DNA from: Panicum virgatum
Lineage: Eukaryota; Streptophyta; Magnoliopsida; Poales; Poaceae
Length of the DNA: 64,000 nucleotides
Direction of reading: 5' to 3'
Assembly: GCF_016808335.1 (NCBI RefSeq)
Contig: NC_053142.1
Location: 45,179,674-45,243,673 of the forward strand
Shown here: positions 7,617-51,747 of the stretch, piece after piece
Position numbering within the stretch: position 1 is the first letter of the stretch
How the letters are laid out: each line of letters begins with the position of its first letter
Position numbers and translations under genes: made by a program
The notes under the pieces: generated by a model
Databases searched by the model: none
Told to the model about the DNA's origin: nothing
What the model saw: only the letters and a program-made list of their open reading frames with translations

Positions 7617-8732
7617 TATATATGTGTGTGTACTTCTTAATTCCACAACTTTTCTACAAAACTTTTGTTAATTTAGTTGCATAGAGGTCTAGCAAGATTA
7701 GGGAAGGGATAACTAGATTACAGAACCCTGTACCACCATGAAACATTGCATAATTTAATATGTCTTAACTTAACTGGTGTTTAGTAGAATTTATAACTTT
7801 TCCTTAAGGTATATATATGTAACATCCCAAAAATCCATAAAATTTAATCACGCGCTAAGTAATTTTCAAAATTATTTTTTTCGTCGTTGAACTCGAGATC
7901 CTCCTAAAGCCCTAAACCCTAGATTCCGGAAACTTCTCCCTGTCCCGAACACCCGATGTCTCATCTCCTTTTTCCCGCTCCGCGCGATGCGCTGCGTGTC
8001 GCCCGAGAACGCGCGCGTGGCCGACCAGCCCACGGTCGCCGCCGCGGATTTCGCCGACACACTCTCTCTCTCTCTTGCTCTCCCCCTCTTTTTCTTGTTC
8101 CCTCCTTTTTCCTTTTTCCATTTTTCTTTCCTTTTTCTATTTTTTCCTTTTCTTTTTTCTTTATTTTTCGTTTCTCCCCCTCCTCCCTTCTCTTTCTCCC
8201 TCCTCTGCCTCGCTCCAGTGCGCCCCCTCCGAACGCCCGCTCGCCCCCTGACCCGTACCCCGCCACTGGCCACCTCCCTCCTCCACGCGCTGGCCGACCC
8301 CACGCGCTTGCCTGCTGCCACTCGCGCGCGCCCTGCCCATGTGCTCGCCGCCGCCACGCGAGCCGCTGCTGCACGCGCCCGGCGCGCCGAGAATCGACGC
8401 CGCGTGCCCCGCTGTGCCCACGAGCGCACCCTTGCCCGCGCCCGCGCACGCGCTGAGCTCGCCCGGCCCGGCCACCGCCGCGCGGCCGCCTTCCGCTCAC
8501 CCCCCGCACGCCCTCGACGCTCACGCCGCTCGGCGACAAGCACAGCGTCCGGCCCCCCATGTGCCACAGTGCGCGGCGCACCGCTCGCAGCTGCCCAAGG
8601 GGTCATGTCACCCCTGTGCCGCCGCGAATCGGGCTGCCGCGGCTCCAATCGCCATTAATGGCGCCCGCGCCGCTCGCCGGCCGCCACCGCCGCGCTCAAC
8701 CCCCCCCCCCCCCCCCACCGCCTCTCGCGCCC

Positions 8733-8740
8733 TATAAAGG
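8733..8740 (+). promoter_or_regulatory. TATA box of LTR D
   Basis: TATAAAGG inside a GC-rich region of the solo LTR, followed by a GC-rich leader. It is the best promoter candidate for transcripts reaching the mini-ORF downstream. A possible first-exon donor GAG|GTAGTT lies at 8897-8898. Confidence 0.55.
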
Positions 8741-9624
8741 AACCCCCAACGTCACTTCCCCGCTCCACGACCGCCTCCATCGTAGCTAGCCCCTTTTGAG
8801 CTACAACAGCGCCGCCGCCGCGATCCTGCTCCGCCCACCGCGCCTGCTCCCGTGGCTGGCCCGCTCCGCCGTCTCCCTGCTCAAGCCAAGGGCCGAGGTA
8901 GTTGCCCTGGCCCTCCCTCTTCCTTTTCCCCACGACCACTCCCCCTGAGCCACCCTTGCCTGCGCCGCCCATGGCCACCGCTCGCCGCCACAACCATGGC
9001 CGCCGCGCCCCTTCCTGCAGACCCCCTTCCATGAAATTGGAGAGGGGAATCAACCCCCATGGCCCCACCTGTCTTTTCCCCATGACTCCGGCCGCCTTCG
9101 AGCCCCCAGGCCACTGGACTAGGGCCGCCGCCGGCATACGCCGCCCTCCCCTACTTCTCAGCGCGGGGGAAGGAAGAAGATAGGGCACTTTTGCCCATAA
9201 CCCCCTCCCCTCCACCATTTTTAACCATTTTGCAAAAGAAACCCCCCCTTCTGTTATATTTCAAAATAAACCCTTCCACCATATAAAACTAATTATAAAT
9301 AAACCCCTACACCATTTCAGTATGTCCCAGATATTTCTAGAAATTACGATCAAGCCCTTCCACTCTCAGAAATAATCACAAATAGGCCCCTGGACTCTGA
9401 TTTAACCCCTAAGCCTTTATATAACCTATCATTTCATGCGCCAAACGACCTCGCATCGACCTAAAACTTTACCACGCCTCTTATGACATAGTTTTGTCCA
9501 TGCCACTAGGAAACCGCCCGAAAATGTTACTCCGAACTCCATATCTTAATTATTTCCGATTCAAGCTCAACGATAAACTTTTATTTCTTTTTCTTGATTG
9601 TGTGTTTGTTTGTATGCGTCATAG

Positions 9625-10913
9625 ACCACGGTGTGAATGAAGGAGAGCCCGATGACGCGCAGTACTGCGAGCAAGCGAACGAGGACCAATTCTGCGACCC
9701 CGAACCCGACGGACAGTGCTTCGATCAGGACCTCCCTGAAGGCTTCGAAGACGGCAAGTTCAATCCCATCCTTTGATGCATGCTTTTGTCCTAGTTTTTT
9801 TTATAAACACAACCTATTAGCCTGTTTTACAAAATTGCATATGTTTTGCTTGCTGAAAACACGGTTGGATAGCCACCCCTTGATTTGTTATAACCATTCA
9901 TTGACCACCTAGATTAATGTCTGATTTTGTTTGGACGTTAATCGCTGTTAGAACGCTTAGGATTTTATACACAATACAACTTGTTATATAAAGAAAAGGT
10001 GTGCGTGTGTGGGAAGGATAAAAGTGGATTTTCGAAAGATGAGTCTAGACGGGATGGATGGCATTTCTGTGGGATTTGCTGTTTGGTGTGCTCGTGCCTG
10101 TGTGGCAGGGCAAGGAAGAGAGATATCCATCTTGTCACAACTAAGGACCGAGTTGGTGTGACATCTCACCTAACTACACTATCGTGCAAACCACTCGACC
10201 GTTGTATGGGCAACGGCTTAGCATAAATCGCACTAGTTAGTCTGATAGCCATCAGGAGAGCTGAGTGCAACGGGTGATCAAGGAGAAGGGATTAGCTCGG
10301 TGTGACTTATGCCCCGGTTAGAACCTCTGTGATAGGTCAATGACCCCTTGGTGCATCCCGTGATGGCTAGTCAGGTCTAGCTAAGGTGGGTAATGGCTTT
10401 GTTGGGATCAGCACCGACACTAAGGTGTTCGTGCTGTGGTACCCCACTTGTGGGTAAAGTTGCACACCTCTGCAGAGTTAAAACCTATTCGAATAGCCGT
10501 GCCCATGGTACTGGGCGAGTTACGGTGTGGTCACACAACTAGTGTTTATTCTGGGAAGGGATGGGTTGGCGCGAGTTGTTTTGGAAATGTGTCCGGCAGT
10601 TGTGCCGTGTGCTACGGCGGATGAGGAGTCCGGTAGCAGTCTTAAAACTTGGATCCTGTGTGGATCAACCCTTCGTGTTACTCGGTACAAGAAAACTGGT
10701 TTTGGAAATGCTTGCTTTCAAATGAACCCTTGCATAAAATATTGTTTTCCGCAAAAGCAAACCTTAACCTTATCATTGAATTACCCTGTGCATTATACTC
10801 TGTTTATTCCCCCTCCGTGGGTGTGATTGGACTTGCTGAGTACGTTTGTACTCACACCATTCTTTATTTTTACAGAAGAAGATCCAGACTTTGTACCTGA
10901 CGATGTTGAGTAG
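9625..10913 (+). CDS. Predicted spliced LTR-encoded acidic mini-protein (LTR D), 3' part
   Basis: Function unknown. Two exons are inferred. The acidic exon 9625-9753 (129 nt, rich in Asp/Glu/Gln, four Cys) follows a TAG acceptor (9623-9624) in phase 1. A GC-AG intron 9754-10875 has donor G|GCAAGT and acceptor TTTTTACAG. The terminal exon 10876-10913 ends in TAG and encodes E-D-P-D-F-V-P-D-D-V-E. The hairpin GAGTAC-GTTT-GTACTC (10838-10853) lies 22 nt before the acceptor. The first exon or exons must lie upstream in the GC-rich LTR and are not resolved. Support comes from the same exon order, phases, GC donor, hairpin and P..DF ending in three other LTR families in this window. The splicing is predicted, not observed. 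Confidence 0.5.
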
Positions 10914-11184
10914 GGGTACCGTACTGCACCCAGCCTTGCCTGTGGATTAGGGACACTCGCAGGAGATACCGCATGGCGCAATACTCTGATGACCCCCTTT
11001 TTGTATTTAACATCGTTGCGTGTGTGTCGATTGTAATCCTCACGATAGTGGCATTTCTCTGCTCACTACCGCGTAGAGTTGTACGGTAATGAACCATCTG
11101 ATATAATAAATGTGTCATCAGCCTCCTGGGACTGATGTTTGTATCACATTTAAGTCTTCTCTTATGAGGGGACGCTTCAATATA

Positions 11185-11505
11185 TACTCTAAATTCCTAT
11201 TTAACAAAGGATAACTAGATCCTTTTTTCCTACCACAATAAGCAAAATAACCATATATCGTGCTTTTTTGCCAACTAAGAATTATACCAGCCCATATTGT
11301 AATATATATTTTGTTACATTTATACGCTTCTTTGCTGAAATTATATGTTAAATCAAATTTTGACCATGTCGTTTCTTTTTCTAGATAATCATGCAATCAA
11401 ACATTTTCATAAATTTGAAATTTTTATATTGGTACATGTTTGATGTAACATTATACTGGGAATAAATGGTAGTAAATTAGCTCACTCCATTATTAGAAAT
11501 GACAT
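11185..11505. other. Gap between solo LTR D and element A
   Basis: About 320 bp of AT-rich sequence with no recognised feature. Confidence 0.6.
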
Positions 11506-11510
11506 CAAGT

Positions 11511-13766
11511 TGAAGCGCCCCAACCCAAAGATCAAGGCTAAACCATGTATTAATAACTGAAGCAAGTCCCCGATATAATACATGTTACATCAAGTGGAGT
11601 CCAAAGTCATACAGAGCTTTATTCAACACGTACACGAGGAGTAAAGTGACAACACCAAGCTACCGCAAATAAACAAAGGATAACGATTAGCATAATGACA
11701 TGCAAGACTAGCTTTTCGTCCATCACGGCTCCACTCGATCAGCTTGAGTGCGGACACAATCTACTCATAATCTTCAGGCACAAAGTCAGGATCCTCTGAA
11801 AAAAAATCAACAAGGGTTGAGTACGAAAGTACTCAGCAAGTCCCACCTCACCCTTACGGGGAGGGACTTACAGATTAATATTCAAAGGTCCATTAATCAA
11901 CCAAAATATATAACAAATGTAGTATTAAATGTAACCCAAACAGTCATCCATCTCATAAGCTAGGTGGCTCAACTAGTTGAGTGAGATGTCCACACTGTAA
12001 CCTATCCAAACCAAGGACACGGACCATTCGAATGGATTGTACACTCTGCAGAGGTTGTACGCTTTACCCACACGCACTTCACCATCCAGAGATGGCTGCG
12101 TCATAGCCGACACCCAGCCGTGGCTCAACCCCAACTAGTCGCCCACAAACCCCCGGGTCTGGACCAATCCAGGTCTCACCCCAAAATATATCCACCTCGG
12201 ACGACTACCAGGTTAGCCAGTGGGATTAGACTAAGGCTTACCCATACAAGCTCATGTGGTCGTACTGAAGGTAGGTTAGGTGAGATGGCACCACAACACT
12301 CGGTCCTTAAGGCTCATCAGGGCAGCCAACAACCATAACCAACAAAACCCGAGATGTCACCACGACAGAGCTCGGTCGCAAGTCTACCACCACGGTAGCG
12401 CATGCACCAGCACATTCCATACTGCCCTGGTCTCATTCCCATCCCAGTTTCATCAATTAACATATGCAAGTCTAACATTAAATCAATATGCAACATGGCT
12501 TCAGTCAATGGTTTCTCTCAGTCTCTCGGTGCTTCATCTCATGCAATCCCTAAGTCTAGCAATTTTTGTTTTATATTTAACCTTACTTAGGATCAATTAT
12601 GGTCAAAGTAAGGGATCGATGAGACTTGCCTTCGCTTACGTACCCGTCGGCGGCAGCGTCTTCCTGGTCTCCTAGTTCCTCCGAACTCTCCTCCGGAATC
12701 GATTCTGCGGCTCAATCGAGCTGGGGACGAGCTGCGGAAGGAGATCGACGGTGCTCTGTTCTTCGGCTAGAGGAAGAAGTAGGGCTTGGTCTGTGGCTGG
12801 TGTGCACGGCGACGAGCTGCGGATGGAGTGAGGCGTCACGGTGCCGGCTCAATTTGCAGGCGGCCAAAGGCGGTTCATGGCGAGAAAAATCTCGGCCGGC
12901 AAACTGTAAGCGGCGACGACGGCACAGCGACGTCGCAGAGTTCCAAGGCTGGTAGGACGATTCGACCTGCAGTGGGGCACGGCTCAGGCGTGGCTTGTGA
13001 AGGGCGGCCTGGCTGGTCAGACGTGCATGAGGGCGTCGTCGAGCTGCTGCTCTCTCTCTCTCTGCTCGTGGCGTCCTCTCAAGTTCGGCAGCGATGTGTC
13101 CGAGTCCGGCAGCGTGGCGTCTCCTTGGGGCAAGGTCCACTTGCACGACAAGATGTGTCGATAGTGCATCAAAAGCTGAGAAGGCGGTGGCGGACAACTT
13201 GCAAGCTCCTACACGCATGTTGCTAGCAGGAATGGAGGTCGGTTCCCGGTGCCGGGGCGTGAGTAAAGTGGAGTAGGTGCTGCTATCGGTTGACTGTGAG
13301 TTATTGCGATGTACGGTGAGGTCGCGATGCTTCCATGGAAAGGGACTGGTGAGCTTTGTTGCAGGTACTGTCATGGCGTTTCTTGCTACTGGAAGGTGAG
13401 GGCGTGCATCTGTGTTGCTCCTGAACAGGGAAGGAAAAGGTAGGCTTTTGCATGAGGGAAGAAGATAGACATTTTGTGCAAGTATAGAAGCACGTGTCTG
13501 GTCATTGAAAGGAATGGGTTGCTGTAAAGTATTTTCAATTGGGGTAGCACAAATGATCTTGGTGAGATTAGGAGGTTGTTCAGTAAATAAAGGAGGGCAA
13601 TGATTAAGTTGGTTGTGTGAATTATATTAGTCCTAGGAAAGTCCTTCGTATAGAGTAGAGACACGGGTCTTGTAATGAAGATTGTTTGTTAACGTTGATC
13701 AAGTTAACTATGTAATCGAGAAGTATACTTCAATTTTATTTTGTTGATGAAAATTGGGATGTTACA
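11511..13766 (-). repeat. 3' LTR of element A
   Basis: 2256 bp, uninterrupted. Near its low-coordinate end it carries the palindromes CCATTCGAATGG (12024-12035) and CTCTGCAGAG (12044-12053) and the hairpin GAGTAC-GAAA-GTACTC (11819-11834), all matched in the other LTR and in solo LTR D. The GC-rich half (about 12600-13300) gives long open frames that look compositional. Confidence 0.92.
11761..12704 (-). CDS. Predicted spliced LTR-encoded acidic mini-protein (LTR A), 3' part
   Basis: Function unknown. On the minus strand the acidic exon 12704-12630 (75 nt, Glu/Asp/Ser-rich) follows an AG at 12706-12705 in phase 1. It is joined by a GC-AG intron (12629-11796, donor GAAG|GCAAGT, acceptor TTTTTTTTCAG) to a 35-nt terminal exon 11795-11761 encoding E-D-P-D-F-V-P-E-D-Y-E and a TAG stop. 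The conserved hairpin lies 22 nt before the acceptor. The terminal peptide nearly matches that of solo LTR D. The upstream acceptor is the weakest part: a TGA lies in frame just before it, and in the right LTR the AG is mutated to AA. Alternative: the upstream GC-rich frame joins elsewhere. Confidence 0.45.
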
Positions 13767-13778
13767 AACCTACCCCAC
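13767..13778 (-). other. Polypurine tract of element A
   Basis: Minus strand reads AGTGGGGTAGG directly before the 3' LTR start TGTAAC. This is the expected plus-strand priming site; the pol stop codon (13781-13779) overlaps its upstream edge. Confidence 0.75.
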
Positions 13779-16700
13779 TTAGGCTGAATCTCGTCCCCGA
13801 GATTCGTCTAAATTACTAAATAGACTAGGGAACTCGGCTCGCAGTGCGTCTTCTCTCTCCCAAGTTGCTTCTACTTCAGAATGTCTGCTCCACTGAACTC
13901 GGCAAATTCTGACTTCTGAGTTTCGGGTCCTTCTAGTCACAGTGTCCAAGATTTTCACTGGCACCTCCTGATATCTGAGATCATCCTGTAGGTCTATTGT
14001 TTCTGGAGCCACTTGTTCCTCTAGGACTCGCAGGCACTTCCTGAGCTGGGACACGTGAAACACATTGTGTACATCTGATATGTCTGCTGGCAATTGAAAC
14101 TTGTAGGCTACTGCTCCCACTTTCTTGATTACCGTAAAAGGTCCAATGTAACGTGGGGCCAACTTCCCGCGCACCTGGAATCTGCGCGTGCCGCGAATTG
14201 GGGAAACTTTAAGGTGCACATAATGTCCAACTTCAAAGCTGAGAGTACGTCTTCTTTTATTGGCATAACTTTTCTGGCGGGATTGAGCTGCCTTTAGATT
14301 CTCTCTTATTTCTGCTATCTTGTCTTCTGCTTCTTTAATAAAATCTGGGCCCTCAATGATGCGGTCGCCAACTTCGGTCCACATGGGAGGTGTGCGACAC
14401 TTTCTCCCATATAGGGCTTCGAACGGCGACATCTTCAAACTTGACTGGTAGCTATTGTTGTAAGAGAACTCCGCATATGGCAAACTGTCTTCCCAATTTT
14501 TGTCATAAGTAAGAACATAGGCTCTTAACATGTCTTCAAGGATCTGATTAACTCTTTCAGTCTGGCCATCAGTCTGAGGATGATAGGCTGAACTGAAGTC
14601 CAACTTTGTACCAAGTGCTTCATGTAACCTACTCCAGAATCTCGAAGTGAATTGGGTGCCTCTATCTGTTACAATCCTCTTAGGTACTCCATGCAACTTC
14701 ACAATACGCTCAATATATAACTTGGCTAATTTATCACCTCCATAAGTGGTACGCACTGGGATGAAGTGTGCCACTTTAGTGAGTCGATCAACAATCACCC
14801 AAATTGAGTCATGACCGCTCTGGGTTCTTGGTAGACCGGTGATAAAATCCATACTAACTTCATCCCACTTCCATACTGGGATCGGCAACAACTGGAGTAA
14901 TCCACTGGGCTTCTGATGCTCTGCCTTGACCCTTTTGCACACATCACAACGAGCGATGAATCGAGCGATATCCCCCTTCATACCATTCCACCAATACTTC
15001 TCCTTAAGTTCCAGGTACATTTTTGTGGTGCCGGGGTGAATGGAATAAGCTGAGTTATGGGCTTCATCCAAGATGGTCCTGCGGAAATGACCTTGCTTAG
15101 GCACACATAATCTCTTCTTGAACCACAAGACTCCATCCTTATCTATTCTGAAATCTGGGGCTTTGCCTTCACTGTTGCAACCTTTAATCCATACCAATCT
15201 TCTATCCTCCATCTGAACTTCCTTGATCTGGTCATCCAGGACGGGATGGACACTAAGGTTGTAGTTGCAAGAGCGGTGTACAACCCTTAGGTTCAACTTT
15301 CTCATTTCTTCACTCAGCTCTGGGGCTTGTGTAACTAAGTGATGGCAATACGCTTTACGACTGAGCGCATCAGCCACCACATTAGCCTTTCCAGGGTGGT
15401 AATGAATTTCCAAATCATAGTCTTTGATCAACTCCAACCATCTTCTCTGTCTAAGGTTGAGGTCTGACTGGGCAAAAATATACTTCAGGCTCTTGTGATC
15501 CGTGTAGATTTCACGCTTGTTCCCGATCAGATAATGTCTCCAAATCTTAAGGGCATGCACAACTGCTGCTAACTCCAAGTCATGGGTGGGGTAGTTCTGC
15601 TCATGTGTTCTCAACTGTCTTGAGGCATAAGCTACAACTCTTCCTTCTTGCATAAGTACACAACCCAATCCTTGTCGGGATGCGTCGCGATACACGACTA
15701 AGCTCTTCTGATTATCTGGCAAGACTAGCACTGGGGCAGAAGTTAGTCTTCTCTTCAACTCTTGAAAACTTCTCTCGCAAGCTTCAGACCAGACAAACTT
15801 CATGTCCTTCCGGAGCATCTCGGTCATCGGCCGGGCTATCTTAGAGAAACCTTCGATGAATCTTCGGTAATAGCCGGCTAATCCCAAGAAACTCCTGATC
15901 TCCGAGGCTGAGGTTGGTTGCTTCCATTCTGATACTGCCTTGACCTTTTCTGGATCCACTTCAACACCTTCAGCTGTTAAGACATGACCCAGAAAACTAA
16001 CTCTCTGCAACCAGAATTCACACTTGCTGAACTTGGCATACAACTAATGTTTTCTAAGCTTTCCCAACACAACTCTGAGATGTTATCCATGCTTCTCAGC
16101 ATTCTTAGAGTAGTCCAGTATATCGTCTATGAATACCACGACAAACCGATCTAACTCCTCCATAAACACCTTATTCATGAGGGTCATGAAAAAGGCAGGA
16201 GCATTAGTCAGCCCAAAAGGCATCACTGTGAACTCATACTGGTCATAACGGGTTCTGAAGGCTGTCTTAGGGATGTCCTCTTGTCGAACTATGAGCTGAT
16301 GATAACCTAACCTCAGATCAATCTTCGAGAAGAACTTAGCTCCTTTCAGCTGATCAAACAGGTCGTCAATCCGAGGCAGAGGGTACTTGTTCTTGATGGT
16401 GACTGCATTCAGATCACGGTAGTCCACACAAAGTCTCATGCTTCCATCTTTCTTCTTCACAAAGAGCACCGGGGCTCCCCACGGAGAAGTAGCAGGTCTA
16501 ATAAATCCCTTTTGTTGAAGCTCTTCAAGATGCTTCTTCAACTCGGCAAGCTCTGGGGCTGCTAACCGATAGGTATTCTTTGCTATAGGCTTGGTTCTAG
16601 GGACTAAGTCAATAGTAAACTCTACATCTCTTTCTGGAGGCATACCGGGTAATTCATCTGGAAACACATCTGCGAATTCCTGAACTACTGGCACATCTTC

Positions 16701-18347
16701 TGGGGATTCTGCTTGGATGTGGTTCACCATGGAGTCTGAAAGGCTAGGCTGGATTAGGCATGTGACTGTTAACCCTTGGTGGTTGGTGACTGTCACTGCT
16801 ATCTCAGCCCAGGCTATGTTTCCTCGGTGCTTGGTGAGCCAGTCCATACCGAGTATGACATCTATCCCTTTGAAAGCAAGGACTACTAGGTTGGCAAGGA
16901 ATACTACCCCACTTTGGTTTATAGGGATATCTATGACACCTAAGTGGCAAGGTATATGACCTCTAGGCGAATGGGTCATTAGCGGCCTCTTAAGGGCTAT
17001 AGTAGGTATATCATGCTTTTCCACAGAGTGAGAGGATATAAAGAAATGCGATGCTCCAGAATCAAAAAGCACTGAGGCTAGAGCTGATTGGACCAGAAAC
17101 TCACCGAAAATCACTCCTGGTTCATCCTCTGCTTCTTCAGCATACACATGGTTAACCTTTGCCTTGCCAAAGGACTGCTGCTGGCTCCTAGCTGGTGCTG
17201 CACGGTTGGCTTCAGTCGGCTGCTTTGGTCCTTGAACCGAGTTGGAGAAAACAGAAGGGGCGGGCTGGCTGAGATACGGGCAGTTGGCCTTGAAGTGTCC
17301 GGCTTCACGGCAGTGGAAACAGGTCCTCACATTGGTCACTTGACTTCCACCAGACTGCTGGGTGCGGAAGGTACTTTGGGTCTTCACAACTGGAGCTGAC
17401 TGAGCTGGCTTCTGGAAAGAACCGGGGTGCACCTTGAATGAGAAGGCACCCTGGCTTCTCTGACCTGAGTGACCTGGATACTGAGTCCTCTGGAACTTCT
17501 CCAACTGCTGGGGCTTCTTGCTTTCAAACCGACATTTGCGCTCACTGAGTTCTACCTTCTTGTTTCTCTCAGTGGTGATAGCCCTGTTGACCATGGCATT
17601 GAAGTCACTATTGGTGGTGATTTCAACCAAGGTCCTGATTTCAGGGTTAAGCCCACCAAGAAAAGCTTCTTGCTTCTTCTCGTCATCATTGATATCCTCT
17701 GGTGCATAATGAGACAACTCTGAGAACTTATGAAGATACTCTGTCACAGTCATCCCACCTTGACGAAGCTTTCTGAACTCATCCTTCTTGAGCTTCATAA
17801 CACTACTGGGAATGTGGTGTTCTCTGAAGATCTTGACAAAGTCAGCCCATACCATCTCGTTAGTATTTTCGTTTACTTCCTGATAACTTTTCCACCAAGC
17901 AAGGGCTGGTCCCCTTAAATGCTGTACTGCGAGCAAAATCTTGTCTCTATCATCTGCATGGACCACTTCAAGCTTCATTTCAATCTCTTGCAGCCAATCA
18001 TCTGCCTCAATTTGGTTATCAGATCCTCCAAACTTAGGTGGCTGCAAGCAGTTGAAATCTGCAATTCTGCTGCCATTGCCATTAGGATGCACCGCAGGTC
18101 TATGGTTGCCAAAATTGCCTTGAGCTTGAGTTGTGAGAGTGGTCACAAGAACTTGAAGGAGTTGGTTCTGCTACTACAATATGGCTGCCAGATCAATGGG
18201 TGCTGGGGTACGGGGAGGTGGCGGCGGTAGGTGTCCATTTTCTAGTGCTTCTGGGGCTACATTCAGAGGGGCTTGGTTTCTCGGGTTGACCTCGTCACCG
18301 TCTTCCTGAGCATGGAGTCCCTAGACTCGGCTCGAATGACGAGACAT
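13779..18347 (-). pseudogene. gag-pol polyprotein of element A, broken by stops
   Basis: One continuous frame of about 1523 codons from the ATG at 18347 (M-S-R-H-S-S) to the TAA at 13779. In-frame stops lie at 18323, 18176, 18173, 16085 and 16046 (first base, minus strand). Domains in order: gag capsid region; zinc knuckle [14 protein letters not shown] at about 17321-17280; protease D-S-G-A near 17063; RT with the active-site motif F-I-D-D near 16130 (next residues I-L-D, where V is usual at the last); RNase H; integrase with H-H-C-C zinc site and D,D,E catalytic residues (D399, D460, E496 of the last open stretch); chromodomain-like tail. Apart from the stops it looks complete. The two adjacent TAGs near the gag start and the pair within RT would block translation. 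The stops fit C-to-T decay of Gln/Arg/Trp codons. Confidence 0.92.
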
Positions 18348-19537: not shown

Positions 19538-20614
19538 CTTGAAGCGCCCCGACCCAAAGATCGAGGCTAAACCATGTTTTAATAACCGAAGCAAGTCCCC
19601 GATACAATACATGTTACATCAAGTGGAGTCCAAAGTCATACAGAGCTTTATTCAACACGTACACGAGGAGTAAAGTGACAACACCAAGCTACCGCAAATA
19701 ACCAAAGGATAACGATTAGCATAACGACATGCAAGACTAGCTCTTCGTCCATCACGGCTCCACTCGATCAGCTTGGGTACAGACACGATCTACTCGTAAT
19801 CTTCAGGCACAAAGTCAAGATCCTCTGGAAAAAAATAATCAACAAGGGTTGAGTACGAAAGTACTCAGCAAGTCCCACCTCACCCTTACGGGGAGGGAGT
19901 TACAGATTAATATTCAAAGGTCCATTAATCAACCAGAATATATAACAAATGTAGTATTAAAGGTAACCCAAACAGTCATCTATCTCATAAGCTAGGTCAC
20001 ACAACTAGTTGAGATGTCCACACCGTATCATGTCCAAACCGAGGACACAGACCATTCGAATGGATTGTACACTCTGCAGAGGTTGTACGCTTTACCCACA
20101 CGTACTTCACCGTCCAGAGACGGCTCCGTCATAGCTGACACTCGGCCGTGGCTCAACCCCGACTAGTCGCCCACAAACCCCCGGGTCTGGACCAATCCAG
20201 GTCTCACCCCAAAACATATCCACCTCGGACGACTACCAGGTTAGCCAGTGGGATTAGACTAAGGCTTACCCATACAAGCTCATGTGGTCGTACTGAAGGT
20301 AGGTTAGGTGAGATGGCACCACAACACTCGGTCCTTAAAGCTCATCAGGGCAGCCAACAACCATAACCAACCAAACTCGAGATGTCACCACGACAGAGCT
20401 CGGTCGCAAGTCTACCACCACGGTAGCGCATGCACCAGCACATTCCATACTGCCCTGGTCTCATTCCCATCCCAGTTTCATCAATTAACATATGCAAGTC
20501 TGACAGTAAATCAATATGCAACAAGGCTTCAGTCAATGGTTTCTCTCAGTCTCTCAGTGCTTCATCTCATGCAATCCCTAAGTCTAGCAATTTTTGTTTT
20601 ATATTTAACCTTAC

Positions 20615-23600
20615 TGTAACACCCCGGTGTTAATCGTCTCACTAATCATGAGTTAACTCGCTAAGTGTGGACTCAAATTCGTCGTTAACGCTAATCGCGT
20701 TCGCTTAGCAAACATCTAGTTAGCAGTGTTCGATCTCGTTTTTGTCCTTGATCTGAGCTCCAAATCAACTTCCGCCCAAAACGAAAGTTGTAGATCTTTT
20801 AATCCTCTACAACTTTTATTTTGGCCAAATTTCAAGTTGTTATATGAAATTTGGAGTTTTATTTGGTCAAAAATTGAGTTAGAAATCGTCAACGAGTGAG
20901 CAGAGGAACTGCAGTGCTCGGCACTGTGCACGCCCGCGCCCATACCGGCGACTGAACGCCGGCGAGCGACTCCACGCGTCGTTCATCCCGGTGATCCTCG
21001 TCGTCCGAGCGCCGCTCTTCTCCTCGCTAGGTCGAGAGGCTTCCAGTGCAATCCATCCCAATCCCCTTCCTCGCGCAGCGAGCGGACTGAGCGAACCCTA
21101 GCTCGTCACTCGCAGCGCCGGCCGTCGTTCGTCGCCCGGCCATCGTTCCTCGCGCCCCGATCCTCCCAAACCCCTATCCACCTCGTCCTTCACCTCTTAC
21201 GACCCTCCGCGAGCCCGTTGGAGCTCCACCACAGCCGAAGTCGAGCTCCAGAACGCGGCCGCCATTGCTGTCCGCCCCGAACTCCACCCCGCGCCGTCGA
21301 GCTCCCTCTCCGAGGTCTCCTCCGCCCAAAATCGACCCACGGTGAGCTCAATCGCGGCCTCCTCCTACTCCCCGACCTATTCCCCACCCGAATCGGCGCC
21401 ACCGTCGTTGAATCGCAGCCGCGCCGCCCGCCGCCCGCGTGCGCCGCCGGACCTTCCTGCTCCAGCCCGCAGCCCCCTACCGCGCGCCCTAGGGCCGCCT
21501 GGCTTCACTGGAGCTTGCGCCGCCCCACGCCGCCGCCACCGCAAGCCGCCGCCGCCGGGACGCCGCAAGCCGTCGCCGCCAGCCGCCGCCGCCCTGGTCT
21601 GGAGTGCCGCCGCCGCGTCGCCCCGCCTCGCGCCGCCTCCGCGCGGGCTGAGGGTGCGCGGGCCCCTGCGCGCGGGCCGCCAGCGCTGCGCCGCCGGCCG
21701 GCCAGCAGCCGCCGCGCGCGCGCCATGCGCGCCCCGGTTTGCGCCGGCCCGCACGGGGCAGAGCAGAGGAGGGGGGCAAGCTGGGCCGGCGCCCACTGGC
21801 AAGTGGGGCCCGGCTGTCAGCCCCCCTTTTATGTTTTTTCATTTCTTTTTTTTTAGCTGAAACTTTAAAAATCCATAGAAATTTGTAGAAAAATCCAAAA
21901 ATGGCAAACTCAATTTTGTTAGGTTTCTAAAATTATGATCTTCAGAGGAAAAATAGCTGTGCAGAGCAGTTGTCACTTTCTCTCTGATGAAAAATTCAAT
22001 TTGTGTTTAACCTAGTTTATTTGTACCACTTGTTTTGTTGCTCTAAAAATTATGAAAAATTTGCAGTAGCTTACTCTTGGTATGTGTGGTTCACTGAAAA
22101 AGTTTCAAGTGCTAGTGTTGTACACTTTTGGGTAGATCTATTTGTGTTCCATTTACCTTGCTAGGGTTATTTTAAATGCTTTGTTAGCAGCAGCTTTGTT
22201 GGAAAATTTTGGGTGGCATGCTTTACTGCTTCTCGTTAAATTGGTAAATTTTAGTTGCTAGATCATGTATGTATGTTAGAGTTTGCTTATAATTAACCCC
22301 TAGCTTTACTCTTTTCTTTTTATAAATGTTGTTAGTTGTTTGTCTCTTGCATGCAAAACAAATCTCTATTTTAATCCCTGCTGCTCTAAGCAGTTAGTAG
22401 TTGTTTTTAGAAGGAAACACTTCAGGCTAAAATGTTTTAACTTTTGGAATCGCATCAGCAGCACTCATGCATTGCGCTGTGTCCTAACTGTTGCATGTCA
22501 TATTTTATTCGTGTAGACGCCACGAGCAACGCTGTCCACGAGCTAGTTGCTGAGCCGATCCAGGAGCCACGAGCAGAGGAGCAGCAGCAGGTCGCCGTTG
22601 AGCACGCCCCCGGAGACCAAGTTAACCCCGCTGACCTGCAAGGCAAGCCTCGGAGCATAACCTTATTTTAATTATTCAATGTTTATTTAAGTATTGTGCA
22701 TTTATGTTCTAGGAGTTGAATGGAACCATAGTATGCATGTTTTCCCTAGATACCGTGGGCCTATACTAGTATGCAGGTGTCGCTAGAAATGCTTTGCTAA
22801 ATAGGATTTCGGTAGAAGTCGAGTGATTGCTGTCACTCGCGAGTTTAGGATCTTGATCCCTTAGCTTTGGCTTGGAAATGCGTTGATGAGTGAAAAGAAT
22901 TGGAGACCGGGCGGGAATGAGTTGGAATAGATGAGAAAATGAACTCCCGCCTATGTCGATTGAGGACCGTACCGTTGTTGGCCCTGATGACCGAGTTTGA
23001 ACAGTACTAACCACATACCGGAAGTAGGAGGTAGTCGAAACCGGTAAGCTGTGTACCACGTTACAGCGGTGATTTGAATTCCGCCATGCTACGCTGGGCG
23101 TGGGAGTTGGCGGGTGTTGGATAGGATGCCGCCTCCGGGTTCTCCGGGAGTTCACCGCGAGGGGCCCATCACCTGGGTTTTAGCAGGCGTAGTTCAGATG
23201 CCGTGGTAATGTGGAAACAGTTGACGCGCATGGCCCGGCGGGGCTTACATGTGTCGTGTGAGTTAGGTCCACCTTGCAAGGTTAAATCGGATCGATTCGC
23301 CGTCTCTCTCGGTTAAGAGGACCTTGGTCACTGCGTCACATCGTAGTAAGAAGTGAAATAAGTATTGGAAGGTAGCGATGGAATGTTGTATCTGTTGTTC
23401 TAAAAGATAATCTGTTCCACCATGTGTGTTTTAGATGAATAGGCGAACTTAGTAATACTTGGTATACTAAATGGAGCTAAAATATTGAAAGTAAGGATTC
23501 ACTTCTAGCAGCTTTTCAGCAAAAGAACTTCAGAGCCAAAAAGCTTTGCATGTCTAGGTAATGGGCTAAGTATACCCAGAGTCGGGTAAGCCTTGCTGAG

Positions 23601-24114
23601 TATTAGTATACTCAGGGTTGTTGTTGTAACCCCTCTGAGCAGGTTGTGTCCCGGCGGACTTCGAGGAGATCTGTGCGTCCTGGATTGGACAGCCGCTTCC
23701 TCCAGGTTGGACCGTCGAGTGGGCCCCGTCTTCCCCGTGAAGATTGGGCAGGTTGGCGTCACATCGGTGGGCAGGATGTGGAGCTCACCTTTTATCGTCG
23801 TCGTAGCTATCGTATTGTATTTCGACTCAGTTTTAAATTTCCGCTGTGCGTTTGAACTCTGTTGTTTGTATTTTAAGACCTTTATGTAAAACCGGTGTTG
23901 TAAATTAATTTGAAGACTTCTGTGTGCTGGTATCACCTGTGCTCGTCTTCGTACGGGTCTAAGTGCAATTGTGATCCTGGAGTACAGTAGTTTAATCGGG
24001 ATTTTACCCGACAGCCTGTCAGGTTACACCGTTTTAAGTGCACAGTAACTGGATTAAGTATTAAGATGATGGTTAGTGCATTTAAGCTGGTTTAATTTGG
24101 ACGGTGCTGCTACA
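20615..24114 (+). mobile_element. Solo LTR, Ty3/gypsy family C, nested in LTR A
   Basis: Starts TGTAACACCCCGG, ends GGTGCTGCTACA, with CTTAC duplicated at 20610-20614 and 24115-24119; the uninterrupted left LTR of A shows the empty site. At 3500 bp it is an unusually long LTR. It shares blocks with the LTRs of element B: the CGGTAGAAG-CGAGTGA region (about 22808), the GCAAGGTTAAATCGGATCGA block (about 23275), and GTCGGGTAAGCCTTGCTGAG (about 23581). The GC-rich block 21090-21830 precedes a candidate donor GTGAGC at 21342. No PBS or coding domain adjoins it. Confidence 0.92.
22517..23740 (+). CDS. Predicted spliced LTR-encoded acidic mini-protein (LTR C), 3' part
   Basis: Function unknown. The acidic exon 22517-22642 (126 nt) follows CGTGTAG in phase 1 and encodes a Glu/Gln/Pro/Ala-rich stretch with V-A-E-P and Q-E-P motifs shared with LTR B. 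A GC-AG intron 22643-23642 (donor CAAG|GCAAGC, acceptor CTGAGCAG) leads to a terminal exon 23643-23740 with V-P-A-D-F-E-E and a TGA stop. The hairpin CTGAGTAT-TAGT-ATACTCAG (23596-23615) lies 27 nt before the acceptor. If the intron is retained, the frame stops at 22669-22671. The first exon is unresolved; the donor at 21342 is a candidate. Confidence 0.5.
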
Positions 24115-25277
24115 CTTACTTAGGATCAATTATGGTCAAAGTAAGGGATCGATGAGACTTGCCTTCGCTTACGTACCCGGCGGCGGCGGCGTCTTCCTGG
24201 TCTCTTGGTTCCTCCGGACTCTCCTCCGGAATCGATTTTGCGGCTCAATCGAGCTGGGGATGAGCTGCGGAAGGAGATCGACGGTGCTCTGTTCTTCGGC
24301 TAGAGGAAGAAGAAGGGCTTGGTCTGTGGCTGGTGTGCACGGCGACGAGCTGTGGATGGTGTGAGGCGTCACGGTGCAGCACCCGGCTCAATTTACAGGC
24401 GGCCAAAGGCGGTTCGTGGCGAGAAAAATCTCGGCCGGCGAACTGTGCGCGGCGACGACGGCACAACGACGTCGCGGAGTTCCAAGACTGGCAGGACGAT
24501 TCGACCTGCAGAGGGGCATGGCTCAGGCGTGGATTGCGGAGGGCGGCCTGGCTGGTCGGACGTGCACGAGGGCATCGTCGAGCTGCTGCTCTCTCTCTGC
24601 TCGTGGCGTTCTCTCAAGTTCGGCAGTGACGTGTCCGAGTCCGGCAGCGCGGCGTCTCCTTGGGGTAAGGTCCACTTGCACGACGAGATGTGTCGATGGT
24701 GCATCAAAAGCTGAGAAGGCGGTGGCGGACAACTTGCAAGCTCCTACACGCATATTGCTGGCAGGAATGGAGGTCGGTTCCCGGCGCCGGGGCGTGAGTA
24801 AAGGGGAGTAGGTGCTGCTATCGGTTGACTGTGAGTTATTGCGATGTACGGCGAGGTCGCGATGCTTCCATGGAAAGGGACTGGTGAGCTTTGTTACAGG
24901 TACTGTCATGGCATTTCTTGCTACTGGAAGGTGAGGGCGTGCATCTGTGTTGCTCCTGGACAGGGAAGGAAAAGGTAGGCTTTTGCGTGAGGGAAGAAGA
25001 TAGACATTTTGTGCAAGGAATGGGTTGCTGTAAAGTGTTTTCAATTGGGGTAGCACAAATGATCTTGGTGAGATTAGGAGGTTGTTCAGTAAATAAAGGA
25101 GGGCAATGATTAAGTTGGTTGTGTGAATTATATTAGTCCTAGGAAAGTCCTTCGTATAGAGTAGAGACACGGGTCTTGTAATGAAGATTGTTTGTTAACG
25201 TTGATCAAGTTAACTATATAATCGAGAAGTATACTTAAATTTTATTTTGTTGATGAAAATTGGGATGTTACACAAGT

Positions 25278-37885: not shown

Positions 37886-38455
37886 ATGGCGCCTACCAGC
37901 AGCACCGAGCCTGCGCCGGTCAAGCACATCACGCTGCACCACTTCCTGAAGCAGCAGCTGCTGCAGCAGCACCGGCTCAAGCCCGCCGTGATGTGGGGAT
38001 GGCCGGCGGCCGCGGCCGCCATCGGGCGGCACGCGCCCGAGGATGCCGCGGACGACGACGACGGCCTGGGCGGGGCGTGGCCGCCGCGGTCGTACACGTG
38101 CGCGTTCTGCCGCCGCGAGTTCAGGTCCGCGCAGGCGCTGGGCGGGCACATGAACGTGCACCGCCGCGACCGCGCCAAGATGCGCGGCGGCCACCACGGC
38201 GGCGCCGCCGCCGCGGCGCAGGCGCAGCTCGCGGACGAGGCGGCGCACGCCACCGCGGCGGCGACCAAGTACGCGGTGCTGTGCCCGATCCTGAACTCCA
38301 ATGCCGCCGGCGCCTTGCTCATTCCCAGCGGGGACGTGCTGCTCTCGGCGCCCGTGGCGCTGGCTCCCGCGCACGACCGGTGCGAGGTGAGCGACGATGA
38401 GGAGGAGGGGGATGACAAGGACGTCGACCTGGAGCTTCGCCTCTGGTGGCCGTGA
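37886..38455 (+). CDS. Single C2H2 zinc-finger protein with EAR repression motif
   Basis: Predicted 189-residue nuclear transcription factor of the plant SUPERMAN-like group. The single finger has C72, C75, H88 and H92 and the plant-specific Q-A-L-G-G-H helix (83-88), followed by a basic stretch ([10 protein letters not shown]) that aids DNA binding and nuclear import. The end carries D-L-E-L-R-L (181-186), an EAR motif that recruits TOPLESS-type corepressors, so the protein probably represses transcription. An acidic run (D56-D59) precedes the finger; a Glu/Asp-rich stretch precedes the EAR motif. Intronless, as usual for the group. The start fits the TATA box at 37781. The finger context W-P-P-R-S-Y-T-C matches SUPERMAN/RAMOSA1-type proteins, but I cannot assign the orthologue. 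Confidence 0.93.
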
Positions 38456-43405: not shown

Positions 43406-45941
43406 TGTAACACCCTGCCCGGATACTCTGGACATAGAGTTTCTAAGTCATTTAAGTTTTTACATCTGAGCCCCACAACCATTAAAACTAACTCATCTCT
43501 CTCACAGCTCACTCTCACACACTCTCTCTCTCGTTACTCTCTCTCCCTTTCACTCCCTTAAGAGCCCTCTCTCTCCCCAAACCCTAGAACTCAAAAATCC
43601 CCATCCCAAATAAATCCCAAGACCAAGGAGGCTCCAATCAGCGTGGGGGTCATCTTCTCCAGGTATTCCACCATGGGGTGGCTTCGTTTTTTAGTTTTCT
43701 TGCAAGGAGAGCTTGCTCAAGGTACTAAGAGTTAGGGCAAAAAGGGATTGATCGATCTAGAGTGTTTAAAGCGATTTCTTTTGGGTCAATCATCTCCCTA
43801 TGAACCATTCTATTAGGGTCTGAAAGGGTTTCAAATTTTGTGGGTTGGTTTTGCCAAAATCAAGATTTCAGTTTTTGGGGCAAAAATGGTGTGAAACCCG
43901 AAAACTCCGGGTATAGGCCCGGAAACTCCGGACTTGGAAGTCTCCGGGGGAAACTCCGGGCTAGAGCCCGGAAACTCCGGACTTGGGGGTCCGGACACTC
44001 CGGGTATTGGTCCGGATATTCCAGATCCCTGAAAATGTTGTCAACTAGTTTGGGCGTGTTTTTATGTAGATTATTAGTACTGATACGTGTTTAATGACTA
44101 ATTTATCATTACAAATCATAATCGTATTTCTCATATCATATGCATACGTGTAGCAGCCGTGACAGAGGAGGTTGTGTACGAGGTGGTGGCGGAGCCACAG
44201 GAGCCGCAGGGGCAAGCCCCGTAGCAGGAGGATCATGGGGAGTCGGCCCAAGGCCCATCTCACCCTAGCACTGAGTCGCAGACTCAAGGCAAGCCCCGGT
44301 GCATGTCCTATTATTTTAACTTATGATTCACTATATATATGCTTATTTAATTACTTGTGCATTAGGTTTTAGTAGTTGTCTGAAATCCTAGTTGCATGAT
44401 CCCTAGGTTTCCTTGAGTTTATACTAGTATGTATAGGTCGATACCGATGACATGCTTAATAGGACTCGGTAGAAGCCGAGTGACTTCTTGTCACTCGCGA
44501 GATATAGGATGTTTCAGAAGTCGGGTAATTGCCAGTTACTCGCGAGACGTTTAATTATTTATGTACTTCGGTATTGAGTTGTGGAATGCAAAGTGTTATT
44601 GATGAAAACTTGAGACCGGACGGGGAATGATGATGGTGTATAGGTATGGCAGCAGGACAGGGTTCCTGGTTGTCTTAGCCCCGTCTATGTCGATTAAGGA
44701 CCAGTCGTTGTGGCAGTGCTGATCGGGGATTGAACTGTACTAACCGCATGCCAGGAGTAGGAGGTAAACGAAACCGATAAGCCTAGTACTGCCTTGCTTC
44801 GAAAGTACAGGACTCTATCTCACCTCCTGGGGTAGTCGAGTAGTCGCGGAGAATTGGGATGCATGTTTTTACATTTGGTGGTCTCTCGTTGAGCTCGGCT
44901 GCCATATGATGGTGGGGCGGTCCTGTAGTTCGAGGTAGGGAGGGGAATGGCTGGTGCGTGTGGTCCAACGGGGCTTATGCGTGTCGTGTTGGTAAGGTCC
45001 ACCTTGCAAGGTTAAATCGGATCGATTCGCCGTCTCTCGTGGATATGAAGGCCTTGATCTCTTTGTCGCCTCATAGAAATGAGTTAGAATGCTAGTGATA
45101 TATGAGGATACTAATTTGAATCATTATTGAATGCTCCAACATGCTTGCTTTAGATATGCAAACAATTGTTGATAGTCTATTTATATAAATATGCGCCAAA
45201 AATATTGAAAGTAAGGATCCACCTATAGATGCTTTTTCTGCAAAACAAACCACTAGCCAGATAGCCGTGCCTGTCTAGATAATGGGCTATGTATACCCAT
45301 AGTCGGGTAAGCCTTGCTGAGTATTAGTATACTCAGGGTTTGTTGCCACAATTATTTCAGGACACCCAGACGTTGACTTCTGCCCCTGCTGTATCAAGTT
45401 CATCCGCCGGGATGCAGAGGGGTAGGAGGTGGTGGAGCGAGACCCTTAGGTTAGGGCGTGGGCGGGTTGCACGATTGAGTACAGCGTGTGCAGCCCCTCT
45501 GTTTTGCTTGGACCGGTCTGACCGGTAGGTTTGGGCAGGCCGAGTGCAATCGGTCTGACCGGTTGAGAGAACTGGTCTGACCGGTTGAATAGGAGCTGAA
45601 CAAGAGTAGTGGTAGGATTGTAGGATCTTTTCCATTTGGCTTGGCTAACCATTGTATAGGTTGTAAAGTAGTTGAATTATGTAAATTATGTAAGAAATTT
45701 GTGTATTTAAACTCAGTTTGTAAAAGCTCTTGTATTTGGTTGTATCTCCTTTGTATTTTCTAGTAATTGTCGTGTCTGTACCATCTGCGCCCGCCTTTGC
45801 GTGGGATTACCGGTGTTGTTTCGATCGGGCCGTGGGTTGAGAAAGGATCGCCAAATTAAACCATTAAGCTAATGCGCTCGATGTGTTCAAATGAGGGCCA
45901 TTACGCTTAATTTAGAGTTTTAATTTGGTGGTTCTGTCACA
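43406..45941 (+). repeat. 5' LTR of element B
   Basis: 2536 bp. Contains CT-rich sequence (43494-43575), a cluster of CTCCGG/TCCGGA repeats (43895-44035), the mini-gene exons, the hairpin CTGAGTAT-TAGT-ATACTCAG (45317-45336), and ACCGGTCTGACCGGT palindromes (45512-45590). Confidence 0.93.
44154..45425 (+). pseudogene. LTR mini-gene of B's 5' LTR, with stop
   Basis: Acidic exon 44154-44288 after TACGTGTAG, phase 1, with V-A-E-P-Q-E-P. It carries a TAG at 44222-44224 where the 3' LTR copy has CAG. The GC-AG intron 44289-45360 (CAAG|GCAAGC ... TTATTTCAG) is followed by the terminal exon 45361-45425, which ends in TAG where the 3' LTR has TGG. The hairpin ends 24 nt before the acceptor. Same architecture as in LTRs A, C and D. 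Confidence 0.45.
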
Positions 45942-45943
45942 GC

Positions 45944-45955
45944 TGGTATCAGAGC
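45944..45955 (+). other. Primer-binding site of element B
   Basis: TGGTATCAGAGC, complementary to the 3' end of initiator methionine tRNA, 2 nt after the 5' LTR. The leader from here to gag (46544) has no ORF but carries three more CCGGTCTGACCG-type palindromes (46305-46400). Confidence 0.93.
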
Positions 45956-46543
45956 CAAAACGCATCGGGGGTGGTACGAGCATGACTAATTTTAAGGGTT
46001 TGCAAATTTAAAATGAGATTTTAATTTAGGGTAAAAGTCGTTTAGTAGTATGGTTGGTATTAGTTAGCACAAGCCCTATGTAGTAAGTAGTGATCGAGTG
46101 GGGTATATGGGGGTTTTGTGAGAAGGGGAGAACATAAGACACTCATGCATCATGTCATTGAATTTTCAGTTGCATTTGAAAGTTTTCATAGGAGTTCATG
46201 CATCATGGCATGCATCATGGCATCCATTATTTTTGTTTGCATGTATGGAATTAGTTTAAGGGTTGTCACCCAAGTTTAGAAGTGAAGTTTAGTTTCTGGG
46301 TGGCGACCGGTCTGACCGATCCTTGACACCGGTCTGACCGGTTGCTCTATGTTGGGCCGGTTACAGTACCGTGCAGAGCCATGCAGACCGGTCTGACCGG
46401 TTCAGCGCAGACAGAGGCCTCTAAGTCGTGTTCAAATAATCTGTTCTCTGTGATTTCTTCCATGATTCGGATATTAGTTGCTGTCAGGATTATTTTTATG
46501 TAATCAGAAAAATGTGACTAATCCAATCATGGTTGAATGCAGA

Positions 46544-47327: not shown

Positions 47328-47331
47328 AGTG

Positions 47332-49107: not shown

Positions 49108-49166
49108 CCCTTACACTTCCTTTTCAAATTAGCACCTCCATTAAATCTCGGGATGAGATTTCTTTT

Positions 49167-49175
49167 AGGGGGAAG
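49167..49175 (+). other. Polypurine tract of element B
   Basis: AGGGGGAAG, 3 nt before the 3' LTR start, the plus-strand priming site. Confidence 0.85.
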
Positions 49176-49178
49176 TAT

Positions 49179-51747
49179 TGTAACACCCTGCCCGGATACT
49201 CCGGCCGTAGGCCCGGATACTCCGAACATGGAGTTTCTAAGTCATCTAAGTTTTTCCATCTGGGCCCCAAAACCATTAAAACTAACTCATCTCTCTCACA
49301 GCTCTCTCTCTCTCTCTCGTTACTCTCTCTCCCTCTCACTCCCTCAAGATCCCTCTCTCTCTCCCCAAACCCTAGAACTCAAAAATCCCCATCCCAAATC
49401 AATCCCAAGACCAAGGAAGTTCCAATCAGCATGGGGTCATCTTCTCCAGGTATTCCACCATGGGGTGGCTTCGTTTTTGAGTTTTCTTGCAAGGAGAGCT
49501 TGCTCAAGGAGCTAGGGCGAAAAGGGATTGATCGATCTAGGGTGTTTAAAGCGATTTTTTGGGTCAATCATCTCCCTATGAACCATTCTATTAGGGCCTG
49601 AAAGGGTTTCAAATTTTGTGGGTTGGTTTTGCCAAAATCAAGATTTCAGTTTTTGGGGCAAAAATGGTGTGAAACCCGAAAACTCCGGGTATAGGCCCGG
49701 AAACTCCGGACTTGGAAGTCTCCGGGGGAAACTCCGGGCTAGAGCCCGGAAAATCCGGACTTGGGGGTCCGGACACTCCGGGTATTGGTCCGGATATTCC
49801 GGATCCCTGAAAATGTTGTCAACTAGTTTGGGCGTGTTTTTATGTAGATTATTAGTACTGATACGCGTTTAAGGACTAATTTATCATTACAAATCATAAT
49901 CGCATTTCTCATATCATATGCATACGTGTAGCAGCCGCGACAAAGGAGGTTGTGTACGAGGTGGTGGCGGAGCCACAGGAGCCACAGGGGCAAGCCTCGC
50001 AGCAGGAGGATCGTGGGGAGTTGGCCCAAGGCCCATCTCACCCTAGCACTGAGTCGCAGACTCAAGGCAAGCCCCGGTGTATGTCCTATTATTTTAACTT
50101 ATGATTCACTATATATATATATGCTTATTTAATTACTTGTGCATTAGGTTTTAGGAGTTGTCTGAAACCCTAGTTGCATGATCCCTTGGTTTCCTTGAGT
50201 TTATACTAGTATGTATAGGTCGATAACGATGCCATGCTTAATAGGACTCGGTAGAAGCCGAGTGACTTCTTGTCACTCGCGAGATATAGGATGTTTCAGA
50301 AGTCGGGTAATTGCCGGTTACTCGCGAGACGTTTAATTATTTATGCACTTCAGTATTGAGTTGTGGAATGCAATGTGGAATTGATGAAAACTTGAGACCG
50401 GACGGGGAATGATGATGGTGTATAGGTATGGCAGCAGGATATGGTTCCTAGTTGTCTTAGCCCCGTTTGTGCCGATTAAGGACCGGTCGTTGTGGCAGTG
50501 CTGATCGGGTATTGAACTGTACTAACCGCATGCCGGGAGTAGGAGGTAGTCGAAACCGGTAAGCCTAGTACTACCTTGCTTCGAAAGTACATGACTCCAT
50601 CTCACCTCCTGGGGTAGTCGAGTAGTCGCGGAGAATTGGGATGCATTTTTTTTACATTTGGTGGTCTCTCGTTGAGCTCGGCTGACCATATGATGGTGAG
50701 GCGGTCCTGTAGTTCGAGGTAGGGAGGGGAATGGCTGGTGCGTGCAGTCCGACGGGGCTTATGCGTGCCGTGTTGGTTAGGTCCACATTGCAAGGTTAAA
50801 TCGGATCGATTCGGCGTGTCTCGCGGATATGAGGGCCTTGATCTCTTTGTCGCCTCATAGAAATGAGTTAGAATGTTAGTGATATATGATGATACTAATT
50901 TGAATCATTATTGAATGCTCCAACATGCTTGATTTAGATATTCAAACAATTGTTGAAAGTCTATCTATATTAATATGCGGCAAAAACATTGAAAGTAAGG
51001 ATCCACCTATAGATGCTTTTTCTGCAAAACAAACCACTAGCCAGATAGCCGTGCATGTCTAGATAATGGGCTATGTATACCCATAGTCGGGTAAGCCTTC
51101 CTGAGTATTAGTATACTCAGGATTTGTTGCCACAATTATTTCAGGACACCCAGACGTTGACTTCTGCCCCTGCTGTATCAAGTTCATCCGCCGGGATGCA
51201 AAGGGGTGGGAGGTGGTGGAGCGAGACCCTTAGGTTAGGGCGTGGGCGGGTTGCACGCTTGAGGACAGTGTGTGCAGCCCCTCTGTTTTGCTTGGACCGG
51301 TCTGACCGGTCGGAAGGACCGGTCTGACAGGTAGGTTTGGGCAGGCTGAGTGCAATCGGTCTGACCGGTTGAGAGAACCGGTCTGACCGGTTGAATAGGA
51401 GCTGAACAAGAGTAGTGGTAGGATTGTAGGATCTTTTCCATTTGGCTTGGCTAACCATTGTAAAGGTTGTAAAGTAGTTGAATTATGTAAATTATGTAAG
51501 AAATTTGTGTATTTAAACTCAGTTTGTAAAAGCTCTTGTATTTGGTTGTATCTCCTTTGTATTTTCTAGTAATTGTCGTGCATGTACCATCTGCGCCCGC
51601 CTTCGCGTGGGACTACCGGTGTTGTTTCGATCCGGCCGTGGGTTGAGAAAGGATCGCCAAATTAAACCATTAAACTAATGCGCCCGATGTGTTCAAATGA
51701 CGGCCATTACGCTTAATTTAGAGTTTTAATTTGGCGGTTCCGTCACA
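49179..51747 (+). repeat. 3' LTR of element B
   Basis: 2569 bp, collinear with the 5' LTR. Differences include extra CCGGATACTCCGG repeats at the start, an additional ACCGGTCTGAC unit near 51318, and scattered transitions. Confidence 0.93.
49932..51233 (+). CDS. Predicted spliced LTR-encoded acidic mini-protein (LTR B), 3' part
   Basis: Function unknown. The acidic exon 49932-50066 (135 nt) has no internal stop and encodes V-V-A-E-P-Q-E-P-Q-G-Q, close to the V-A-E-P...Q-E-P of LTR C. A GC-AG intron 50067-51144 (donor CAAG|GCAAGC, acceptor TTATTTCAG) joins in phase 1 to a terminal exon that begins G-H-P-D-V-D-F-C-P-C-C and stops at 51231-51233. The hairpin CTGAGTAT-TAGT-ATACTCAG (51101-51120) ends 24 nt before the acceptor. 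The upstream acceptor is TACGTGTAG. The first exon is unknown. Confidence 0.5.

Follow-up and report, generated by a model that had tools for sequence, protein, structure and literature searches.

A putative spliced accessory gene within the long terminal repeats of Ty3/gypsy elements

The long terminal repeats (LTRs) of plant retrotransposons are usually viewed as regulatory sequence, and the locus analyzed here raises the question of whether they may also encode protein. An earlier note on the window (the whole 64-kb stretch of Panicum virgatum DNA) had proposed that four LTR families, denoted D, A, C and B, each hold a short acidic exon followed by a terminal exon that closes in frame, and that the encoded peptide is kept by selection. 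The reading that we favor, with a probability of about 0.68, is that these exons belong to a Ty3/gypsy accessory gene that resides in the LTR and is spliced inefficiently, and the product of which is under selection while the elements transpose and decays after insertion. According to this reading, a homologous small gene consisting of an acidic exon, a GC-AG intron with a hairpin and a short terminal exon would lie wholly within the LTR; a fraction of the RNA would lose the intron and, thus spliced, code for an acidic protein that is kept by selection during transposition, with decay setting in once the element is inserted. The unspliced RNA would then be the genome and the spliced RNA the messenger.

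LTRs and the elements that carry them

All four repeats prove to be true LTRs, with TG..CA ends and 5-bp target duplications. LTR D (7818–11179, plus strand) is a solo LTR with TG..CA ends and the low-complexity target duplication ATATA. Element A lies on the minus strand and comprises its 3′ LTR, A1 (11511–13766; TG..CA ends, target duplication CAAGT), the gag-pol ORFs (13779–18146) and its 5′ LTR, A2, which is present as a 3′ part (19540–20614, including the terminal exon at 19790–19824) and a 5′ part (24115–25272, including the acidic exon at 24163–24237). Nested in A2 is LTR C (20615–24114, plus strand), a solo LTR with the target duplication CTTAC. Element B, on the plus strand, extends from its 5′ LTR, B1 (43406–45941), to its 3′ LTR, B2 (49179–51747), with the target duplication CTCAA. 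Elements A and B are complete, with paired LTRs, TG..CA ends, a target duplication and a primer site, TGGTATCAGAGCC, after the 5′ LTR, which we take to match tRNA-Met. Between the two LTRs of an element, 90 of 2220 aligned bases differ in element A and 101 of 2517 in element B. Rfam at gathering scores gave no match within the LTRs.

The order of domains typical of Ty3/gypsy elements (gag, protease, reverse transcriptase, RNase H, integrase) was found in element A, where Pfam detects gag, protease and reverse transcriptase in one ORF and RNase H and the integrase zinc-binding region in the next; the solo LTRs C and D lack an internal region. The three ORFs of element B that were run in Pfam contain gag, the integrase zinc-binding region, an SH3-like domain and a chromodomain, and the integrase core falls just below the cut-off in both elements. 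The Pfam Chromo domain of element B scores 33.6 bits (cut-off 25.1), and none was found in element A at an E-value of 0.1; a chromodomain at the integrase end would be the mark of a chromovirus of the Tekay/Del clade.

The exon pair and its GC-AG intron

All six LTR copies in the window (D, A1, A2, C, B1 and B2) carry the exon pair, and the sequence bears out the four pairs that had been described. In LTR D, the acidic exon (9625–9753, plus strand) has 129 nt and the terminal exon (10876–10913, plus) encodes EEDPDFVPDDVE; in A1, the acidic exon (12630–12704, minus) has 75 nt and the terminal exon (11761–11795, minus) encodes EDPDFVPEDYE; in C, the acidic exon (22517–22642, plus) has 126 nt and is followed by the terminal exon at 23643–23740 (plus); and in B2, the acidic exon (49932–50066, plus) has 135 nt and is followed by the terminal exon at 51145–51233 (plus). 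The four terminal exon spans include the stop codon. Each acidic exon length is a multiple of three, as claimed, and in each family the acidic exon, read in frame f2, leads into a terminal exon that follows an AG and encodes the expected peptide. Frame f2 is the only one that is open across the acidic exon in all four families; it is the sole open frame in D and C, A1 is open also in f1, and B2 also in f0. The exon pair of B1 (44154–44288 and 45361–45449, plus) contains two in-frame stops, both absent from B2.

The inner intron, 0.8–1.1 kb in size across the four families, opens with the donor GCAAG in each of the six LTR copies, A2 included. It closes with AG in D, A1, C, B1 and B2, so that the inner introns are GC-AG introns. 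A GC donor suits partial splicing. The donor region is lost or altered in 5 of the 272 public copies among the matches listed (see below). As a separate observation, the GC donor of all four inner introns had gone unremarked in the earlier note. Upstream of the terminal acceptor, all six copies contain a hairpin in which GAGTAC or GAGTAT is separated by a loop from GTACTC or ATACTC; the pattern occurs nowhere else in the 64-kb window. In LTR D the predicted fold spans approximately 10837–10855 (plus strand), with the pattern at 10838. The loop-closing pair is C-G in A and D and T-A in B and C, which amounts to one compensatory change.

Public proteins were searched three times with the spliced peptides, yielding 272 distinct proteins: all 55 matches of the first search, the best 120 of 1680 of the second and the best 120 of 491 of the third (97 of them new). 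With its lower limit of about 65 amino acids, the first search was unable to show D-type joined ORFs, which are about 64 amino acids long. Among the matches listed, 6 of the 272 are contiguous ORFs with the exact predicted junction and the predicted stop, at least one for each family: in the D-type ORF P0176, PEGFED is followed at once by EEDPDFVPDDVE; in the A-type P0177, AYVSE by EDPDFVPEDYE; in the C-type P0056, NPADLQ by GCVPADFEEVFASWIGQPLPPGWTVEWAPSSP; and in the three B-type ORFs, P0064, P0070 and P0108, TQ or AQ leads into GHPDVDFCP or GPQDVDFCP and on to the same terminus. Since each of these proteins was predicted from a contiguous contig, the junction is not an artefact of the query. 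Of the public proteins that extend as far as the donor, nearly all continue across it (GKFNP in the D-type, GKPRSIT in the C-type), like unspliced DNA or RNA. The joining of the acidic to the terminal exon, originally a conjecture, thus recurs in each of the four families with the predicted bases, and the predicted removal of the inner intron has independent support for each of them from these database records. The six joined ORFs all come from JGI (6 of 34 JGI-containing records vs 0 of 238 ENA-only records among the matches listed, tallied by hand; Fisher p = 2.5e-6), a source pattern that fits transcript assemblies, so that the joined records may be RNA. P0108, whose contig is 6333 bases long, might be genomic and simply lack the intron; none of the other five joined ORFs lies on a contig of more than 1436 bases.

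The upstream side of the acidic exon fared differently. Entry into this exon by splicing after the AG, as originally proposed, is not supported by the public sequences: in all five informative joined ORFs (P0056, P0064, P0070, P0108 and P0177), the frame runs on through the AG, matching by eye the unspliced relatives, and P0176 begins inside the acidic exon and is uninformative on this point. The corresponding site reads CCGCAG in A1 and CCGCAA, without the AG, in A2, and the upstream boundary of the acidic exon is uncertain in D, A1 and B2. Nor did the common first exon envisaged in the earlier note emerge: scanning D, C, A1 and B2 for an upstream ATG exon in phase 1 with a GT donor matching at least six of nine consensus bases yielded a single candidate, in B2 (MGSSSP), and none in the other three. 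An in-frame ATG is present in C at 22495, 22 nt ahead of the proposed acidic exon, and no start codon was found in the open frame of the window copies of A, B and D. In D, the first AUG of the acidic exon belongs to another frame, f0, and this frame, once past a stop, is open across both exons.

Conservation of the reading frame and rival explanations

Comparison of the spliced products between families singles out frame f2. For both D/A1 and C/B2, aligning the f2 peptides with each other outscores the other eight of the nine frame pairs, with scores of 68 (z 8.9; next best 44) and 74 (z 8.9; next best 34), respectively. Taken singly, the terminal exons of D/A1 (z 9.7) and the acidic exons of C/B2 (z 6.1) carry the signal; none was detected in the acidic exons of D/A1 (z −0.6) or in the terminal exons of C/B2 (z 1.3). 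The P..DF likeness of the terminal peptides is present as described, but so short a motif does not by itself amount to a significant link of A/D with B/C.

The substitutions between families depend on the frame. In the blocks of 17 codons (C/B2) and 11 codons (D/A1), these 28 codons having been picked because they are alignable, the three codon positions show 4, 4 and 14 differences, with a dN/dS of 0.17; a nucleotide-only alignment of both exons, with 75 out-of-phase columns dropped, gives 14, 19 and 31 differences (p = 0.009). As a control, the C/B2 intron was divided into 494 overlapping windows of 51 columns, of which 11 have a phase bias as strong as that of the C/B2 block. Between D and A1, the terminal exons are identical at 28 of 33 positions and the preceding 60 nt at a fraction of 0.81, and immediately past the stop codon the identity drops to 0.60, close to the 0.59 of shuffled sequences. 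Within elements, the differences by codon position are 2, 3 and 2 for A1-A2 and 3, 3 and 1, plus two nonsense changes, for B1-B2; the third-position bias is gone after insertion.

Among the public matches listed, protein-level diversity is 0.198 in the exon, 0.411 upstream and 0.307 downstream for the D-type (138 proteins), and 0.212, 0.399 and 0.134, respectively, for the C-type (113 proteins), such that in the C-type the codons just inside the intron vary less than those of the exon. This comparison, in which the flanks are read-through sequence and 21 of the 272 proteins were left out by a motif filter, is suggestive only, given that the matches were selected by exon similarity as the best 120 of 1680 and of 491. 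Moreover, between C and B2 the similarity of intron 2 (75.1% identity, 956 aligned columns) matches that of exon 2 (72.2%, 115 columns), which indicates that constraint at the RNA level is also present. The proposal of protein-level selection, made from the kept phase and peptide, is supported insofar as the substitutions between families are frame-dependent, but such selection is not the sole constraint. Judged from these alignments, purifying selection on the frame is supported, short of proof, and the product is likely, though not proved, to be a selected protein.

The equally similar intron of C and B2, together with the constant sequence past the C-type donor, is what one would expect of a leader intron without a functional protein, which would act through regulation of the leader (export, removal of upstream AUGs or a split of the RNA pool), with the purine-rich exons serving as splicing enhancers and the peptide being a by-product. 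The lack of a start codon in the window copies of three of the four families and the failure to find a common first exon also favor such an arrangement, which we regard as the most serious alternative but still rather improbable. Against it stand the third-position bias, the f2-specific peptide similarity between families and the end of the D-A1 similarity at the stop codon.

The joined ORFs themselves could be genomic copies that lost the intron by reverse transcription of spliced RNA, splicing being rare and useless to the element. The length of the P0108 contig agrees with such an origin; the short contigs of the other five joined ORFs do not, the restriction of all six to JGI suits transcript libraries better, and the pattern of selection would be left unexplained; we consider this origin quite improbable for the set. 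Least probable by far, and already contradicted by the joined ORFs, is that unrelated short ORFs keep their phase by accident: isolated motifs of the P..DF kind are short, and two of the four single-exon comparisons lack a signal, but the exact junctions were recovered independently in all four families, and the donor and the hairpin are common to all six copies. As for the accessory gene that we favor, reverse transcription of a spliced RNA would, in the standard scheme, copy an intron-less 5′ end into both new LTRs; the intron is kept in all six window copies, and hence it is most likely the unspliced RNA that is reverse-transcribed.

The predicted product and its relation to known systems

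The spliced product would be an acidic and probably disordered protein of roughly 45–90 residues. The net charge of the five peptides computed ranges from −9 to −20, and AlphaFold2 on P0056 (30 rows) gives a mean pLDDT of 54.6 and no confident fold. A Pfam search with five of the six joined ORFs (all except P0070) returned a single match, under its cut-off, and no family. A PDB sequence search with P0056 hit a WW-domain chain over 13 residues (E 0.57), which we take as chance. The back-translated EDPDFVP pattern has five loci in IMG/VR, where the matches lie in long open frames of microbial or phage appearance, and an RT/integrase search of the viral contigs gave five pattern matches of its own, none of which was confirmed. 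The C-type donor pattern has no match in viral contigs and eight in genome contigs, all with prokaryotic titles and with at most 24 nt of LTR match, and these were likewise rejected.

Rev and Rex contain a basic RNA-binding segment; in the plant peptides, no arginine-rich stretch was seen by eye beyond KFIRRD in the B-type. With an export regulator like CERV, Rev or Rex, it is the anatomy alone, that is, the joined ORFs and the intronic hairpin, that would fit. A role of the protein in regulating the element's own RNA, at the level of transcription, splicing or export, is a tentative suggestion. It is equally speculative, and drawn by analogy, that each LTR, solo LTRs included, might form a promoter-exon-intron-exon-polyA unit encoding a small acidic trans regulator, with the hairpin marking the unspliced genomic RNA in the manner of Rex and its response element or of CERV; that such LTR-resident regulatory genes would form a previously unrecognized class is doubtful at this stage. 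Coding or RNA-export functions in LTRs are familiar from vertebrate retroviruses, namely MMTV Sag, HIV Nef and the HTLV Rex response element in R; the likeness is one of placement, and the plant ORF differs in being split by an intron inside the repeat.

Among retrotransposons, Cer1 of Caenorhabditis elegans is reported to encode CERV, a regulator produced from a spliced mRNA and needed for export of the genomic RNA (PMC10309623). The likeness to CERV is anatomical and concerns a host of another kingdom; unlike CERV, the plant gene has both exons and the intron inside the LTR. Distinct RNA pools for translation and replication are described for BARE (PMC3735527), and partial splicing of the RNA is reported for EVADE and Ogre (PMC12786077, PMC6317226). 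The plant LTR gene resembles the three elements in that partial splicing would yield separate RNA pools, whereas in them the splice serves Gag or the gag-pol frame, and here it lies within the LTR and involves a separate small ORF; in contrast to their internal-region introns, the exons and intron are within the LTR in all four families.

A search of the literature that covered titles and abstract openings, with most subscription journals outside it, found no description of a spliced protein encoded by a plant LTR, which does not imply its absence from print. If the proposed gene is real, solo LTRs, usually seen as dead remnants, could express an element protein, LTR exons of this kind would currently be misannotated or missed, and the elements would separate genome from messenger by retaining or removing an intron in the repeat. 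Involvement of a grass solo LTR in splicing has a parallel in MIKKI of rice, a single rearranged locus that acts as a miRNA decoy and, according to its authors, does not function as a protein (PMC5599236).

Intron 2 and its borders in the C and B LTRs

Intron 2, the inner intron between the acidic and the terminal exon, contains a strongly conserved block of 142 nt (75-77% identity) in the solo LTR C (23213-23354) and in both LTRs of the complete element B (44943-45084 and 50727-50868), and this block may serve the unspliced transcript as an RNA signal. Directly 3' of the C-type donor, the stretch 22642-22668, which yields GKPRSIT on read-through, is nearly invariant among the C-type proteins listed, and B resembles it at the equivalent place despite the intron status of the stretch.

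Variants among A/D-type public copies

The donor region is deleted or altered in five D-type copies among the retrieved public proteins (P0006, P0011, P0013, P0016 and P0266), the change being of nearly the same manner in the first three. Two other public proteins, P0264 and P0270, are read-through ORFs that pass from the intron end into SEEDPDFVPEDVE, another variant of the A/D terminal exon.

Other features of the window

A match to the Rfam family snoZ247 (RF00321; 65.3 bits) at 60145-60283 falls within a long open frame (59998-61146), which on visual inspection represents a gag region of Ty1/copia-like type; this Rfam family may itself be of retrotransposon origin. The inverted repeat at 55147-55363 (105 nt, 83% complementary, with a 7-nt spacer) is possibly a foldback or MITE-like element. 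Three further open frames look host-gene-like by eye, resembling genes for an AT-hook protein (3034-3969, minus strand), a C2H2 zinc-finger protein (37886-38455, plus strand) and a MYB-like protein (51923-52432, minus strand), respectively.
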